Of a stretch of 32,364 nt of DNA, positions 6,362 to 15,870 are shown in pieces (position 1 is the stretch's first letter; each line of letters starts with the position of its first letter). Source of the stretch: Halorhabdus amylolytica (GTDB lineage Archaea > Halobacteriota > Halobacteria > Halobacteriales > Haloarculaceae); NCBI RefSeq assembly GCF_004944975.1, contig NZ_SPQG01000003.1:122218-154581 (forward strand), read 5' to 3'. The translations under genes and the position numbers were made by a program. The notes under the pieces are model-generated. The model ran no database searches, was not told where the DNA came from, and was given only the letters and a program-made list of their open reading frames with translations.

Positions 6362-7084
6362 TCAATCGTTCACGGCCAGCGGACGGGTCAACGCATCGGC
6401 GTCCGTGTCGACCGACTGTAACGTCCGGAGACCGTTCAGGGCGATCAGTCCGAAGCCGACCTTCGCTACCACGTCGATGTACGTGATGACGAGCGAACTC
6501 GTCTCGGCGTCCATCAGCCCGTATCCGGTCGGGGCGAGTAGCCAGATGACCGGATAGACCAGCCAGAGTACGATCACGAAATTCCGGAGTTTCCGGTAGA
6601 GGCCGGCCTGGACGACTGACAGTTCGTCGGCACTGTCGGCGGCCTGATAGATCAGCAAGTAGACGACGCCGACGAACGCCAGGCTGCCAGCCAGGAAGAA
6701 CAGTTCCTTCAGCGGCGTAGCGAACACTGCCCCCAGGAATCCGAGGGCGATCGTCGCGGCCTGCAGGCCGACCGCCGCACCAGTCAGCCGCCGGCCGGCG
6801 CCGGCGATCACGGCGATGAACAGGACGTGAAGCGGCGTCGTCAACAGCCAGTCGACGTAGCGGGGGACGAACACTGTCGCCCCGCCGCCAGCGCCGATCT
6901 CGCCGATTCCCAGCGCCATCAGCCCGTAGGCAACCGTCGCAATGAGCGTGACGATCACCACGTCCGCGTAGGTACGGTACCACTCGCGGGGCAAGACAAC
7001 GAACCCGTAGGCGAGTCCGACGCTTCCCAGTGCCATCCCGAGCGTGCCCAGCGTGAACCAGAGTGTGATGTCGATTGCGACCAT
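6362..7084 (-). CDS. sop2: Sensory rhodopsin II (phototaxis receptor)
   Basis: Seven-helix retinal protein of 240 residues that senses blue-green light and passes the signal to its bound transducer. Helix C carries R75 and the counterion D78 in RYVDWLLTTP, with Phe89 where proton pumps have the cytoplasmic donor Asp, as in sensory rhodopsins. Helix G carries D204 and the retinal-binding K208 in YIDVVAKVGFG. Helix F contains LVYPVIWLLAP. Assignment to the SRII type rests mainly on the gene 3 bases upstream, a transducer of HtrII length. The residue before the retinal Lys is Ala (A207); in Natronomonas SRII it is Thr204, implicated in signalling. A GGAGG ribosome site lies inside the end of the transducer gene, so the two are probably translated from one mRNA. 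Confidence 0.92.
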   Translation of the reverse strand: MVAIDITLWFTLGTLGMALGSVGLAYGFVVLPREWYRTYADVVIVTLIATVAYGLMALGIGEIGAGGGATVFVPRYVDWLLTTPLHVLFIAVIAGAGRRLTGAAVGLQAATIALGFLGAVFATPLKELFFLAGSLAFVGVVYLLIYQAADSADELSVVQAGLYRKLRNFVIVLWLVYPVIWLLAPTGYGLMDAETSSLVITYIDVVAKVGFGLIALNGLRTLQSVDTDADALTRPLAVND

Positions 7085-7087
7085 AGA

Positions 7088-9382
7088 TTAGTCCTCCAGT
7101 GCGGTTGCTGCCCTCGCGTCGGCATCGCCGGATCGATCGACCTCGAAGCGTGCGAGCAACGACTCCAGCTCGTCGGCCCGCTGGCGCAACTCTCCGGCCG
7201 ACTCGGAAACCTCCGCGATTGAATCAGTCTGTTCGTCGGCTGCCGACGCCACCGTATCGGCCTCCCGGGTCGTCTGCTGGCTGATCGCTGCGAGGTCGTC
7301 GACCATCGCCATGACCTCCTGGGCGGTGTGGGCCTGATCCTCGGTCGCGTCGTCGATCTCCTGGATTCCCCGGTCGGCTTCCTCGGCGTGCTCGACGATC
7401 GTCTCCAGGGACTCGACGGCCTCGGTAACGGTCGCGACTCCCTCGCTCATCCGTTCGCTCGTCGACTCCATCGTCTCGACGGTTTCGCCGGCCTGCTCCT
7501 GGATGGCCTCGATGCGGGCCTCGATGTCGCCGGCGGCGTCCTTGGTTTCCTCGGCCAGTTCCTTGATCTCGTCGGCGACCACGGCAAACCCTTCGCCGCC
7601 GCCCGAGTGGGCGGCCTCGATCGAGGCGTTGATCGCCAGCATGTTCGTCTGGTCGACGATCTGTGTGATCAGGTCGACGATCTCGCCGATTTCGTCCAGG
7701 TCGTCGTCGAGTTCGTTGATCGCCCGTCTGGTCCGTTCTGTCTCCCCCTCGATGGCGTTCATCTCCGCGATAGCCTCCTCGGCGGCTTGCTGGCCGGTCT
7801 CGCCGACCTCGGCGGCCTCCCGAGAAGTTGTGGCGACCTGCTGGGCCGAACTGGCGACCTGCTGGGCCGACGCCGAGAGGTTCTCCATCTCGCCCGCGAT
7901 GTCCTGGAGGCGCTCGCTTTGCTCGCTGGCGCCGTCGAAGATCTCCTCGATCGACTGACCGACCTGTCGGCTGGCTTCGCTTACCCGATCGGCGTTGCGC
8001 CGGACCGTGTCGCTCGAACGGGCGACCTCGTCGGCGAAGGCTTCGACGTCCGCGACGGTCGCCTCCAGGGCCGCGAGCGCCTCGTTCAGTTCCTCCCCGA
8101 CCGTCTGCATTGCCGCGTTGTCACTGTCGGGATCGACCCGCCGGGTGAGGTCGCCGTCGGCAACCTCGTCGAGGACGGCCCCGTACTCGGCGGCTTTCGT
8201 CTCCAGGTGCGAGGACAGCGCTTGCATCTCTTCTCGTTCCCGTTCGGCCTCTTCCCGAGCCGATTCAGCGTCCTTTCTGGCGGATTCGGCCTCCTCGCGG
8301 GCTGTCTCGGCTTCGGTGATCTGCTCGCGCAACGAGTCGCGCATGTCGGCCAGGGCCGCGTACAGCGATCCGATCTCGTCGTCGCGTTCACTCGTGAGAT
8401 CGACCTCGAGGTCCCCCCGGCCCATCGCCGCCGCTCGGTCGGCTAGCTGTCGGAGCGATAGCGCCGTGTTCGAACCCACAGTGACCCCGATCAGTCCGAG
8501 ATTGATGATCGCCAGCAACACCAGGCCGAGCAGGTCCGAGTTGATCTGACTCGTGAGTGCGTACGCCCGGTCGGCGGGCATGTGGGTCATGACCGTCCAC
8601 TGAAGCGTCGATAGCCTGGCCATCCCCATGACTGTCTCGCCCTCGCGACCGAAGGCGACATCGCCGGCCGAGAGGTTCCCGACAGCGTGTCCCGACGTGG
8701 TCAGGATCTTGTTCGCATCGGGATGTGCCACGTACTCGCCCGCCTCGTTCACGACGACAGTCGAGGTGTCGTTCCCGCCGCCCAGTGCCTCCGCGCGCGC
8801 CTCCAGATCGGCCATGTAGACGAGTGCACGGTCATCAGCCCCCTCGATTGGCGAGATAACGGCGATGATCGGGTGGTCGACGATCGGAACCGAGAACGGC
8901 TCGGAGACGTGGACGTCATCCGGATTGTCGAACGTCGGCGGGTCGGTGGCGAAGGCAGCACCCTGTTGGGCCGGATCGACGCCGACCATCCTGTCGCTCG
9001 AACTGGTCAGAAATTCCATCCCGTCCGTGTCCAGGTAGTGGACAGCGACCACGTCCTCGGGGACGTTCCCGTTCTCGATCATCCGATCGAGAGCCGGTTT
9101 GATCCGATCGACGTCGTCGGAGGCGAACACGGACAGTTTCGACGTCGTCCGGACGTCGCCCGTCACTGCCGACACCCACGTGTCGAGGTGGTCGGCCTGG
9201 GCGCCAGCCTGACTCGTGAGGTCGCGTTCTACGTCGTCCCGGAGTTCACCCGAAGCCTGTGCGCTGATCACCGCGCCGAAAGCGAGCATCACGACGATCG
9301 CGAACGCGAGGGCCACTCCCAGTCGCGCCGTGTACCGCTCGCGGACGACGGCGGGGAGCAACCCGGAGTTGTCCCGTGGCAT
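7088..9382 (-). CDS. htr2: Sensory rhodopsin II transducer (methyl-accepting, HtrII type)
   Basis: A 764-residue chemotaxis transducer. It has TM1 at about residues 20-42, an extracellular ligand-type domain of roughly 240 residues, TM2 at about 282-303, a HAMP region, a long charged coiled coil rich in EEAESAR-type repeats, and the cytoplasmic signalling hairpin. The conserved tip is recognisable in DQTNMLAINASIEAAHSGG followed by GEGFAVVADEIKELAEE, which contacts CheA/CheW. The length and large extracellular domain match Halobacterium HtrII (about 765 residues, reported also to sense serine) rather than the short-loop Natronomonas form. Immediate linkage to the rhodopsin makes the pairing secure; a chemical ligand is only inferred. 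A TATA-like CTTTACG about 30 bases upstream fits the ATG at 9382. Confidence 0.93.
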   Translation of the reverse strand: MPRDNSGLLPAVVRERYTARLGVALAFAIVVMLAFGAVISAQASGELRDDVERDLTSQAGAQADHLDTWVSAVTGDVRTTSKLSVFASDDVDRIKPALDRMIENGNVPEDVVAVHYLDTDGMEFLTSSSDRMVGVDPAQQGAAFATDPPTFDNPDDVHVSEPFSVPIVDHPIIAVISPIEGADDRALVYMADLEARAEALGGGNDTSTVVVNEAGEYVAHPDANKILTTSGHAVGNLSAGDVAFGREGETVMGMARLSTLQWTVMTHMPADRAYALTSQINSDLLGLVLLAIINLGLIGVTVGSNTALSLRQLADRAAAMGRGDLEVDLTSERDDEIGSLYAALADMRDSLREQITEAETAREEAESARKDAESAREEAEREREEMQALSSHLETKAAEYGAVLDEVADGDLTRRVDPDSDNAAMQTVGEELNEALAALEATVADVEAFADEVARSSDTVRRNADRVSEASRQVGQSIEEIFDGASEQSERLQDIAGEMENLSASAQQVASSAQQVATTSREAAEVGETGQQAAEEAIAEMNAIEGETERTRRAINELDDDLDEIGEIVDLITQIVDQTNMLAINASIEAAHSGGGEGFAVVADEIKELAEETKDAAGDIEARIEAIQEQAGETVETMESTSERMSEGVATVTEAVESLETIVEHAEEADRGIQEIDDATEDQAHTAQEVMAMVDDLAAISQQTTREADTVASAADEQTDSIAEVSESAGELRQRADELESLLARFEVDRSGDADARAATALED

Positions 9383-9581: not shown

Positions 9582-11030
9582 ATGCCGGACGCCGGCGATC
9601 CTCGGAACAGCGACCCGTTCGCCCTGGTCAGGGAGGTGCTTGCGGATCCATCGGACGCGACCAGTTCCGTCCCGGCACTGCTTGGTCTGCTTGACGCCGA
9701 GGAGTCGACGGTCCGGCTTGCCGGGGCATTCGGACTCTGTCTGGTGGCCGTCGCCGATCCCGATTCGATCCCGACTGTCGTCACCCGTCTGACGGATCGG
9801 CTGGAGGGTGACGGTCGCGCCGAAGCCACGATGGCCTACGACTATCTCGCTTCGCAGTTCCCCCGTCGCGTCGACGAGATTCTCCAGGAACGCGAGACGG
9901 GGACAGGATCGTCGATGTCGCCCGGTCGACCGGGCGGACGGACGGACGAACGCGACGGCGTCGGCCGTGTCCGCCCGCCGGGTGTCGGATCCTACGATCC
10001 GCGGACGGTCGAACCGAATCGGAGCGTCATCGATCCGGCGGATCCACAGCGTCACCCGGACGGGGACGTCCCCGACCCCCGATCCGAGGGCTCCGAGACG
10101 GCGACCGACGATCGATCCGAGTCGACGCCGGGAGGGTTCCGGTCCGGGCCGACGGAGCGACAACAGTGGAACCGGCTGTACGAACGGCTCTCGGCGATCG
10201 TCGAACACAGCCGATTCGATGATTTGATGGTCCTCTCCGGACGGACGCGGGATCGGTACGCCGACGTGTCCCGCGTCCTCGCCGTCGAGGAGAACACAGA
10301 ACGCGCGCTTGCACTCCGTCTGTTTCACCGACCCTCCGAAGACCGGGATGCCTTCGTCGCGGATCTTTCGGATGCCCTGACGGAGTGGCAGGCGGTCGGC
10401 GACCACTCGAACGTCGTGACGGTGTTCGACGTCGGCGATCGTCCACAACCTTGGGCGGCGACCGAGCCGATCGTCGAGACGCTGGCCGACCGGGCCGGAC
10501 GCCTGCATCCATCTACCGCCGTCTCGCTCGCTATTGACCTCGCTGATGGCCTGGCCTACGCCCACCAACACGGCGTGATCCACGGCGGCCTCGATCCCGG
10601 GAACGTCGCCCTGCCTGCGGCCGACGGAAAGCCGGAGACCGGCGCGCTGGATAACTTTTCCCTGCTCGGAGTCTATCGGTGGTACGTGACGCCAGCGACC
10701 TGCCTTGATCCGCGCTACGCAGCCCCGGAGTACTACGACCGGCGCTTCGGCCGCGTCGACCACGCGACGGACGTCTATCACCTCGGGGCGGTCCTCTATC
10801 GGCTCTTGACGGGGCGACCCCCGTTCGAGGGCCCGTTCGACGAGATCCGCGAGGGCGTCATGCACGACGAACCCCCAAAACCGTCAGCGGTGGCCGAGTT
10901 ACCTGACGGGTTGGATCGGATCGTCACGAAGGCGATGGGCAAACACACCCTGGGGCGATACGAAACAATCAATGACCTTCGGGGTGATCTGGATCGCGTG
11001 CACGAGGAGTTGACTGCGGATGGCGATTGA
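9582..11030 (+). CDS. HEAT-like/protein-pseudokinase fusion
   Basis: A 482-residue soluble protein. Residues about 1-108 are helical and resemble HEAT-type repeats (VPALLGLLDAEESTVRLAGAFGL). Residues about 110-190 are a disordered, Gly/Arg/Asp-rich linker, and about 195-480 form a protein-kinase fold. The fold is clear from the C-lobe: YAHQHGVIHGGLDPGN, AAPEYYD, DVYHLGAVLYRLLTGRPPFEG. The catalytic residues are lost: the HRD-x-K loop reads HGGLDPGN (no Asp, no Lys; N341 kept), DFG reads NFS (about 358-360), and the VAIK lysine appears to be Arg in ALALRLF. I infer a pseudokinase scaffold rather than an enzyme. A GTG one codon earlier (9579) is an alternative start. Its 3' end overlaps the seven-helix gene by 11 bases, so the two are probably made together. 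Confidence 0.75.
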   Translation: MPDAGDPRNSDPFALVREVLADPSDATSSVPALLGLLDAEESTVRLAGAFGLCLVAVADPDSIPTVVTRLTDRLEGDGRAEATMAYDYLASQFPRRVDEILQERETGTGSSMSPGRPGGRTDERDGVGRVRPPGVGSYDPRTVEPNRSVIDPADPQRHPDGDVPDPRSEGSETATDDRSESTPGGFRSGPTERQQWNRLYERLSAIVEHSRFDDLMVLSGRTRDRYADVSRVLAVEENTERALALRLFHRPSEDRDAFVADLSDALTEWQAVGDHSNVVTVFDVGDRPQPWAATEPIVETLADRAGRLHPSTAVSLAIDLADGLAYAHQHGVIHGGLDPGNVALPAADGKPETGALDNFSLLGVYRWYVTPATCLDPRYAAPEYYDRRFGRVDHATDVYHLGAVLYRLLTGRPPFEGPFDEIREGVMHDEPPKPSAVAELPDGLDRIVTKAMGKHTLGRYETINDLRGDLDRVHEELTADGD

Positions 11031-11772
11031 CGGCGGCCTGGACACGGCGGCTGACGTCGCGATCGGGGTCACCGAGATCGGCGGCAACCCGAACCTGACG
11101 TTCGTCTACTTCATCGCGTTCGTCCTGATCGGTGCGCTCGGCGTCCGCTTTTGCGTTTATGCGTTCTGGAATCGACAGGCGAGTGACCTCCCTTCCCAGG
11201 CGTCGATCTGGACCGTGCTTGCACTGGTCGGCGGCGCCGCGGCGATCTACGGGATCGTCGGCGTGCTCGAGATCGTCGTCGATGGGATCCCCTCCGTCCG
11301 GACGGGCGTCTTCCTCGGGTTCGTCCTCCTGCTTGCACTGACGATGCGCTCGATCGCCCGCGAGGGATCACTCGACGACGATGACGGGGGATGGAGGTCC
11401 AGTCGGGCCGTCCTTAGCGTCTTCGCCCTCGCCGTCGCGGGGGTCTTCGTCGGGGAAGTGCTCGGCCTCGAGCGCCGACCGATCGTGGTACTGGCCGGTG
11501 TCGGTGCGATCGTCTTTGCCACTTACGGCTACTGGCACGGCCGGTCACAGCTTTCCCGGTCGATGGTCCAGGGGACGATGCTCGACACGCTGTTGCGTCA
11601 CCTGCTTCCCGTCCTCGCCTTCGGCGCCGCCGTCCCTGCGGTCGAGCTGGGCGTCCTCGGCGGGATCGACCGCACGATCGTCCTGCACGTCCAGGTCGTC
11701 TTCGTGATCATGACGGCGACAGCACTGATGACTGCCAACATCAAACTCCGGCAAAACCTCGCGCGGCTGTGA
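11020..11772 (+). CDS. Seven-helix membrane protein of unknown function
   Basis: A 250-residue protein with seven predicted membrane helices at about residues 27-49, 63-86, 95-112, 129-149, 154-172, 194-214 and 218-239. Positive charges cluster in the loops after helices 1, 3 and 5 and in the tail (KLRQNLARL), which places the N-terminus outside and the C-terminus inside, as in rhodopsins and GPCRs. Helix 7 has no central Lys, so it cannot bind retinal in the usual way. I recognise no family. The start at 11020 lies inside the end of the pseudokinase gene, in another frame. That overlap implies coupled translation and a joint function, perhaps a membrane receptor and its cytoplasmic partner; this is inference. 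Confidence 0.7.
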   Translation: MAIDGGLDTAADVAIGVTEIGGNPNLTFVYFIAFVLIGALGVRFCVYAFWNRQASDLPSQASIWTVLALVGGAAAIYGIVGVLEIVVDGIPSVRTGVFLGFVLLLALTMRSIAREGSLDDDDGGWRSSRAVLSVFALAVAGVFVGEVLGLERRPIVVLAGVGAIVFATYGYWHGRSQLSRSMVQGTMLDTLLRHLLPVLAFGAAVPAVELGVLGGIDRTIVLHVQVVFVIMTATALMTANIKLRQNLARL

Positions 11773-13767: not shown

Positions 13768-15870
13768 TCAGCCGAGCGACGGCTCGGTCCTCTCGAGTGC
13801 CGCCTCGAAGTGTTCGCGAGTGATCGTCACGTCCTCAGCATACTCGTTGGCTGTCCCGGGATCGTGTTCGGTGGCGACCTCACGGATGGCCCGAAGGGAG
13901 GCTTCCCGGACTAGCGCATCGAGGTCCGCGCCGGAGAACCCCTCTGTCTCGGCAGCGATGGCGTCGAGATCCACCCCTTCGAGAGGCTTGCCCTCGCTGT
14001 GGATCGCGAGGATTGCCTGCCTGGCCGACCGGTCCGGTGGGGGGACCGCAACGTGGGATTCCAGCCGCCCCGGGCGGAGGAGCGCGGGGTCGATCGCGTC
14101 ACGGCGGTTCGTCGCTGCCAGGACGACCAGGTTCGGGTCCGCTGCGGCGCCGTCGAGTTCGGTCAGCAACTGTGAAACGACCCGTTCGGTCACCTCGTGG
14201 CCGTCATCCCGGTGGGCGGCGATGGCGTCGATCTCGTCGAGGAAGACGATCGTCGGAGCCGTCTGGCGGGCCCGCTCGAACAACTCGCGGATGGCCTTTT
14301 CGCTCTCGCCGACGTAGCGATCCAGCAGTTCCGGTCCGGCCACCCGGATGAAGTTGACACCACTCTCACCAGCGACGGCCCGGGAGAGCAGCGTCTTGCC
14401 GGTCCCCGGCGGGCCATGGAGCAACATGCCGGTCGGCGGGTCCGTCTCTGTCGCCTCGAACAACGGCCCGTACTCGAGTGGCCACTCGATGGCCTCCCGG
14501 AGGACATCCTTGGCGTCTTCGAGCCCGCCGACATCCTCGAACGTCACCGCAGGGGACTCCGCGACGTAGGCCCGCATCGCCGAGGGTTCGACGCCTGAAA
14601 GCGCCCGCTTGAAGTCCTCCCGGGTGACTGTCGGTCGGTCGCGTTCGCGTCTGAGGGCGATCATCGCGGCCTCCGTGGAGACGGTGGCGACGTCTGCCCC
14701 GACGAAGCCGTGCATTTTCCCGGCCAGCCGGTCGAGGTCGACATCCTCGGCCAGGGGCATCCCGCGGGTGTGGACCTCGAGGATCTCCCGACGCCCCTCC
14801 CGGTCGGGAACGCCGATTTCGATCTCACGGTCGAAGCGACCGCCCCGACGCAGCGCGGGATCGACGGCGTCGACGCGGTTGGTCGCGCCGATGACGGCGA
14901 CTTGCCCACGCGCCTCCAAACCGTCCATCAGCGTCAGTAACTGCGCGACGACGCGGGTCTCCATGTCGGCGTCGTCGTCGCGTGCGCCGGCGATCGAGTC
15001 GATCTCGTCGATGAAGAGGATCGACGGCGCCGACTCCGCGGCGCGTTCGAACGCCGCCCGAAGTTGTTGCTCGCTCTCGCCTTTGTACTTCGAGACGATC
15101 TCCGGCCCCGAGATGGCCTCGAAGTGGGCGTCGACCTCGTTGGCGACCGCCTTCGCGATCAACGTCTTGCCGGTCCCCGGCGGGCCGTACAACAGGACGC
15201 CCTTCGGCGGGGTGATCCCGAGCCTGTCGAAGACGTCCGGATCCGAGAGGGGGAGTTCGATCATCTCCCGAACACGGTCGAGTTCCCCGTCGAGACCGCC
15301 GATGTCCTCGTAGGTAACCTCGCCCGGCCCGGTCGTTCCGTCTCCTTTCCCGTTCTGGCCTTCCCGCTCGGCCGCGTGGTCTTCCTCGAGGGCCAACCCG
15401 AACCGGATCTGGGTATCGTCGTTCACCCGGACAGTCCCCGACGGCTTGGTCTCGCCAACCGTGAACGTGGCTATCTCTGGCACTGTAACCCGGTCGCCTT
15501 CGCGGAGAGGGGTTCCGCGAAGGTGACTTTCGACCGTCGACTCAGCGTTCCCCTCCACCTCGTCGTCGATCGGACGCAAGAGAATCCGGTCGGCATCGGC
15601 CAGATCCGTGGGTTCGAGCGTTACCGTCGTACCGACCGTCACGTCCGCGTTCGAGCGCGTATCGGCGTCGATGCGGACGTACTCGCCGGTCCCGTCCTCG
15701 GGCCAGACCTTCGCGACCGTCTCGCGTTCTCCCTCGATGACGACCGTGTCGCCGCTGAGGATGCCCAGGCGGTCCCGGACGCTCTCGGGTACTCTGGCGA
15801 TCCCGCGGCCCGCGTCGCGCTTGTGGGCTCCCTCGACTCTGACCTCGACGGCCCGCTCGGCTGCGACCAT
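13768..15870 (-). CDS. cdc48: Cdc48/VCP-type AAA+ ATPase
   Basis: A 700-residue double-ring AAA+ unfoldase that extracts or unfolds proteins, usually for the proteasome. It has an N domain (about 1-175; [27 protein letters not shown]). D1 carries Walker [15 protein letters not shown], Walker B ILFIDEID and the arginine-finger strand [12 protein letters not shown]2 carries [27 protein letters not shown] and [11 protein letters not shown]. Both ATPase sites look intact. It is somewhat shorter than the usual 740-760 residue haloarchaeal Cdc48, so it may be one of several paralogues. The ATG at 15870 starts directly before the N domain. Divergent from the small gene at 16051, with two inverted repeats in between. 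Confidence 0.95.

Follow-up and report, generated by a model that had tools for sequence, protein, structure and literature searches.

A linked haloarchaeal gene pair predicted to encode a seven-helix, possibly receptor-type membrane protein and a HEAT-repeat pseudokinase

Sensory rhodopsin II (PF01036) is a retinal-linked seven-helix protein with its N-terminus outside and its C-terminus inside the cell, and it signals through a partner encoded by the adjacent gene, the membrane transducer HtrII. Seven-helix sensor modules are also found in the HisKA_7TM histidine kinases (PF16927), which are common in the same genomes as the proteins described here, and seven helices with a conserved cytoplasmic face are found in GPCRs, including LYCHOS/GPR155. 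Kinase folds that no longer catalyze are known from bacterial membranes: the Ser/Thr pseudokinases MviN/ActPs3, EssB/YukC, and GLW have a kinase fold with degraded catalytic motifs and act as scaffolds at the membrane; in the examples reviewed, they are joined to transmembrane segments or to other domains (PMC12599244). In MviN, for instance, the pseudokinase domain recruits an inhibitor and thereby regulates cell-wall synthesis (PMC12599244). HEAT repeats and haloarchaea are not mentioned in that review (PMC12599244). We also found no description of an archaeal pair consisting of a pseudokinase and a stand-alone seven-helix protein in the open-licence literature, a scope that makes this weak evidence of absence; the first-pass annotation of the DNA analyzed here had likewise known of no such system.

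The pair in Halorhabdus amylolytica resembles each of these systems in part. Its seven-helix member shares with sensory rhodopsin II the number of helices, the N-out/C-in topology, a TM-score of about 0.5, and a putative signalling partner encoded next to it, but a profile comparison with 29 opsins gave no relation (hhalign probability 0.2%), there is no link to retinal, and the partner is a soluble pseudokinase instead of a membrane transducer. GPCRs, LYCHOS/GPR155 among them, provide the best structural matches over the seven helices (Z 16–18); identity, however, is about 10%, with no sequence sign of descent, the protein is archaeal, and the fold may be convergent. Unlike the HisKA_7TM proteins, the archaeal protein stands alone, without a kinase or PAS domain, and comparison with 28 HisKA_7TM domains yielded an hhalign probability of 0.5% and no Pfam match. 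The second member is similar in fold and sequence to PknB-type Hanks kinases but lacks the catalytic Lys and the HRD Asp. It also differs from the bacterial pseudokinases in being soluble, predicted to carry HEAT-like repeats, and accompanied by a separate seven-helix partner. We put the chances as even that the pair represents a membrane receptor-type protein together with a soluble HEAT-pseudokinase that serves as a scaffold or switch on its cytoplasmic face.

The window, that is, the whole analyzed stretch of 32,364 nucleotides, corresponds to C20:122218-154581 in a genome of 3.46 Mb. The two open reading frames overlap by 11 bases (11020–11030), and the pair diverges from htr2 and sop2, with the start codons of htr2 and the pseudokinase gene 199 bp apart. 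Both the overlap and the divergent arrangement had been proposed in the first-pass annotation, and we found the frames, including its choice of the pseudokinase start codon, as it had described them; the two phototaxis genes were recognized by Pfam (Table 1). Among named relatives, Halorhabdus salina is the closest, with 74% identity in the seven-helix protein.

Table 1. Features of the gene pair, its surroundings, and related loci. Positions refer to the window unless a locus (L) or contig (C) is named; fractions are counts among relatives.
Feature	Position	Strand	Basis or remark
sop2	6362-7084	opposite to pair, after htr2	Pfam Bac_rhodopsin
htr2	7088-9382	opposite to pair, divergent	Pfam MCPsignal, HAMP
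Pseudokinase gene, HEAT-like repeats, 482 aa	9582..11030	+	ORF; Pkinase match; AF2 model
N-terminal HEAT-like alpha-solenoid, six helices, residues ~12-105	9615..9896	+	AF2 secondary structure, pLDDT mostly >90
Linker, low-confidence, probably disordered, residues 110-187	9909..10142	+	pLDDT <50
Predicted pseudokinase domain, residues ~192-480	10155..11021	+	VIA-align Z 28-30 to PknB/Stk1
Beta-3 Lys position, Arg246	10317..10319	+	R 37/46, K 1/46
HRD position, HGG, residues 334-336	10581..10589	+	Asp absent 46/46
DFG position, NFS, residues 358-360	10653..10661	+	D 27, N 13, E 4 of 46
APE motif, kept, residues 381-383	10722..10730	+	P and E 46/46, A 45/46
Orphan seven-helix gene, 250 aa	11020..11772	+	ORF; outside all Pfam families; AF2 model
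Cytoplasmic 5-6 loop and helix 6 start, residues 181-201	11560..11622	+	most conserved loop
CDC48/VCP-like AAA ATPase gene	13771-15870		downstream of pair
GatZ/KbaZ-like tagatose-bisphosphate aldolase gene	17925-20083		overlaps pfkB-family kinase gene
Kinase paralogue, same genome	C1:186703-187356		VAIK Lys, HLDLKPAN, DWG kept
Sister-group HEAT-pseudokinases	L126:9632-11194, L208:6289-7743, L209:6057-7505, L206:6760-8262, L207:5495-6904		HGG motif
c8 ORF, example	L088:10299-10535	opposite to pair	family unrecognised
f12 block loci	L104, L107-L111, L115, L117-L119, L121, L122		
Decay-stage loci	L100 (G190), L103 (G194), L113 (G171), L116 (G031)		

The 250-residue protein belongs to no Pfam family and had no sequence match in the PDB up to E = 1; its sole NCBIfam match was below threshold (E = 0.35), and plasmid-borne homologues in PLSDB are annotated 'hypothetical protein'. 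An AlphaFold2 model based on 54 relatives (pLDDT 92.3, pTM 0.88) predicts seven helices (residues 24–54, 58–86, 94–116, 124–148, 152–180, 187–208, and 218–249), and the charges obey the positive-inside rule, in agreement with the N-out/C-in topology assigned earlier. The top Foldseek matches in the PDB were rhodopsin phosphodiesterase, sensory rhodopsin II, bacteriorhodopsins, and class A GPCRs, with E-values of about 1e-3 to 6e-2 (best 1.1e-3, none reaching 0.001) and TM-scores up to about 0.6 (about 0.5–0.6 for bacteriorhodopsin). In the VIA-align ranking, the LYCHOS GPCR domain came top (Z 17.9 for 222 residues at an rmsd of 3.7), ahead of class A receptors. Since helical bundles can reach Z values up to 14 through their common arrangement, we took the likeness to GPCRs as a shared arrangement, not as descent; a search for detectable homology to GPCRs returned neither a Pfam GPCR family nor a PDB sequence match. 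In the model, the seven helices, with the N-terminus outside, follow the same order and packing as those of GPCRs. The predicted fold is GPCR/rhodopsin-like, a likeness of fold only, and sharing it does not prove a receptor. Identity as a microbial rhodopsin was rejected, given that, besides the profile result above, there was no Bac_rhodopsin match and no Lys in the position of the Schiff base: the only Lys in helix 7, K242, lies at the cytoplasmic end and is mostly Arg in relatives, which bears out the earlier remark that a retinal lysine is missing.

The cytoplasmic half was more conserved than the outer half in each of the seven helices (means, 2.13 versus 1.55 bits; Mann-Whitney p = 5e-5). 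G185, T186, D189, L191, R193, and V198, within the 5–6 loop and the start of helix 6, are each kept in at least 90% of the 54 relatives, and the best-conserved polar residues (N51, R110, R129, D189, R193, and Q245) cluster on the side of the cytoplasm. This pattern fits an intracellular docking or output face combined with a variable outer side, and it is equally compatible with a cytoplasmic active site. The main rival to the receptor-type reading builds on the latter: the seven-helix protein might be a membrane enzyme, a lipid-binding protein, or a transporter, with its active site in the conserved cytoplasmic Arg/Asp/His cluster, and the pseudokinase might be its allosteric subunit or regulator, a role with a precedent in MviN (PMC12599244). 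Some gene neighbourhoods are in keeping with such a function. In the f12 genomes, genes for RGP-like (glycosyltransferase-like), solute-binding, permease-like, ABC ATPase, and PMT_2/DUF7846 proteins come after the pair, where the 536-residue protein of the block is presumed from its gene position to be the permease; a gene for a solute-binding protein likewise follows the pair in several Halorussus genomes. The neighbours vary between families, however. In f17 (Halorussus and Haladaptatus), a gene for a HalX response regulator comes after the pair, in several cases with genes for a solute-binding protein or Dak, and the f1 neighbours are TFB, GDPD, and 3HCDH. Because the neighbours in f12, f17, and f1 disagree, the neighbourhood points to no single pathway. 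In addition, the protein matched no enzyme or transporter family, and the fold searches were topped by receptors and rhodopsins. We consider the enzyme or transporter function unlikely.

The 482-residue protein matches Pkinase (PF00069, E = 1.3e-11) and is similar to PknB at the sequence level over residues 271–475 (E = 8e-22). In an AlphaFold2 model built from 46 relatives, its kinase domain superposes on PknB and Stk1 with an rmsd of about 2.5 over about 250 residues (VIA-align). Pfam gave a weak, sub-threshold match to HEAT_2 (E = 0.02), while the model contains six N-terminal helices and the RefSeq name of the relatives is 'HEAT repeat domain-containing protein'.

According to the first-pass annotation, this protein had lost the HRD Asp and Lys, the DFG motif, and apparently the VAIK Lys, and the alignment columns over 46 relatives agree on every count: the window protein has R246, HGG, D338 in place of the catalytic-loop Lys, and NFS. 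It thus possesses none of the residues by which an active Hanks-type Ser/Thr kinase is recognized (beta-3 Lys, HRD Asp, and DFG Asp). The HRD Asp is replaced by G, A, S, or T in all 46 relatives, and no Lys is conserved at the catalytic-loop position. By contrast, the DFG Asp, which is Asn in the window protein, is kept in the form of DWG in 27 relatives, mainly outside the window's family, indicating that the loss of the metal site is partial across the family and that of the HRD Asp is total. The kinase fold itself (Z about 29 to PknB) is retained along with the APE motif, and the alpha-F Asp and alpha-I Arg are as invariant as the Pro and Glu of APE (46/46). The first-pass annotation had named intact motifs at a shifted site as evidence against motif loss; the alignment contained none. 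A paralogue encoded in the same genome retains the motifs and aligns in register, which rules out faulty alignment as the source of the losses. Judged from these sequences, the kinase-fold family is a conserved, family-wide pseudokinase and not a decaying gene. An anti-phage role was discarded: the PADLOC matches (PD-T4-6, MAD6, and PglW) all fall within the generic kinase fold, and none involved the seven-helix protein.

The kinase fold might alternatively be an enzyme with an unusual mechanism, such as AMPylation or phosphotransfer with Arg in place of Lys; the prevailing beta-3 Arg, together with the Asp often present in place of the first DFG residue, might still allow nucleotides to bind to some extent. 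We regard this as improbable in view of the complete absence of the HRD Asp, the lack of a conserved catalytic Lys or of any replacement conserved across families, and the additional loss of the DFG Asp in the window protein.

The seven-helix gene is present in 55 of 195 genomes surveyed in the order. We searched about 20 kb around the loci of these 55 genomes, together with eight named loci, in six frames with profiles of the two families. For 57 of 60 full-length seven-helix homologues, the pseudokinase gene was located no more than 1.2 kb upstream, in the same orientation. These linked pairs span five family-level groups, and start/stop overlaps of 1–13 bases recur among them. A linkage of this extent shows that the pairing is not due to chance, and it is the reverse of homologues occurring mostly apart, which the first-pass annotation had set out as the observation that would count against its proposal. 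Of the three exceptions, G147 has the pseudokinase gene 3.4 kb off on the other strand, G017 has a clear orthologue (by tree) on the same contig at a distance of about 92 kb, and G182 has only related HEAT-pseudokinases located elsewhere. No pseudokinase accompanied three seven-helix remnants of 52–79 residues (L011, L113, and L116), and no fusion of the two proteins was seen among the loci. Pairwise distances of the two proteins were correlated (r = 0.95, exceeded in 0 of 1000 Mantel permutations; 0.87–0.95 within families), although shared vertical descent explains much of this correlation and would alone predict correlated distances.

Two side observations concern the pairs themselves. Many Halorussus loci (L080–L094) have a conserved antisense ORF of 79–83 residues (cluster c8) between the two genes, a point against their forming one module, and stages of decay were visible in an f17 genus (g33, probably Haladaptatus), where the pair shows an in-frame stop, a frameshift, and remnants.

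When 392 genomes of the phylum were searched with profiles, the family turned up in the same order only, apart from a seven-helix subfamily of distant relationship (E about 1e-20 to the seven-helix profile) that has no pseudokinase and no consistent partner. This subfamily occurs in G007, G024, G043, G051, G098, G128, and G140 (L196–L203), next to varied genes (multicopper-oxidase-like, trypsin/PDZ, and ABC1 kinase-like). Conversely, a sister group of HEAT-pseudokinases with the HGG motif, conserved in the window's genus and G182, has no seven-helix neighbour. Each part can therefore exist alone. The two genes might be co-transcribed without functional coupling, as neighbours by descent that act separately, and their separation in G017 and G147 would suit this explanation. 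The linkage, however, persists over the five family-level groups though all other neighbours change, and the decayed seven-helix copies are also without the pseudokinase; we consider it improbable that the two are uncoupled.

The neighbouring sop2-htr2 genes had suggested a phototaxis context, which was not borne out. Within the window's family, 10 of 17 loci, from several genera, show this divergent arrangement, whereas sop2 is near the pair in none of 43 loci outside it, and loci of the window's family that lack sop2-htr2 keep TFB and GDPD genes next to the pair. Genome G191, in which no opsin was found, retains the pair, as does G098, with a single weak opsin match, and strong sop2 homologues occur without the pair in other genomes of the window's family (G003, G125, and G103). 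Opsins are present in 39 of 55 genomes with the seven-helix gene and in 80 of 140 without it (Fisher p = 0.10), an association too weak and not significant for a functional link by co-occurrence, which we rejected. The phototaxis genes beside the pair are incidental, being neighbours and not required partners, and despite their recurrence within one family, the notion of an accessory that modulates sop2-htr2 or its signalling to the archaellum is highly improbable.

We return to the receptor-type protein with its HEAT-pseudokinase scaffold or switch. The 250-residue protein would be a stand-alone, seven-helix, receptor-type protein, N-out/C-in and unrelated to retinal proteins. A stimulus would act at its variable outer side or inside the membrane, and the resulting change would be relayed to its conserved cytoplasmic face, on which the cytoplasmic 482-residue protein may dock via its kinase fold. 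The pseudokinase would transfer no phosphate but serve as a scaffold or conformational switch; its HEAT solenoid, tethered by a flexible linker, might recruit or release a downstream protein. What the analysis shows is the linkage, the motif loss, the predicted fold, the topology, and the conservation, whereas contact between the two proteins, signal reception, switching, and output are inferred. The "receptor and cytoplasmic scaffold" of the first-pass annotation stands as the best available reading, with the genes together and the motifs degraded, while its binding and receptor function are the conjectural part.

More tentatively, the pair may belong to an undescribed archaeal receptor system, in which a stand-alone, GPCR-shaped receptor signals via a dedicated soluble HEAT-pseudokinase and depends on neither retinal nor two-component phosphotransfer nor chemoreceptor arrays. 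The pair makes a testable target, since the two genes are short, lie side by side, and occur in many haloarchaeal species, and since the seven-helix protein is without a Pfam name. If the two proteins are truly a receptor and its pseudokinase effector, they would provide an archaeal example of signalling through a catalytically dead kinase, and seven-helix signalling in archaea would extend to a form in which retinal, G proteins, histidine kinases, and chemoreceptor arrays all play no part.
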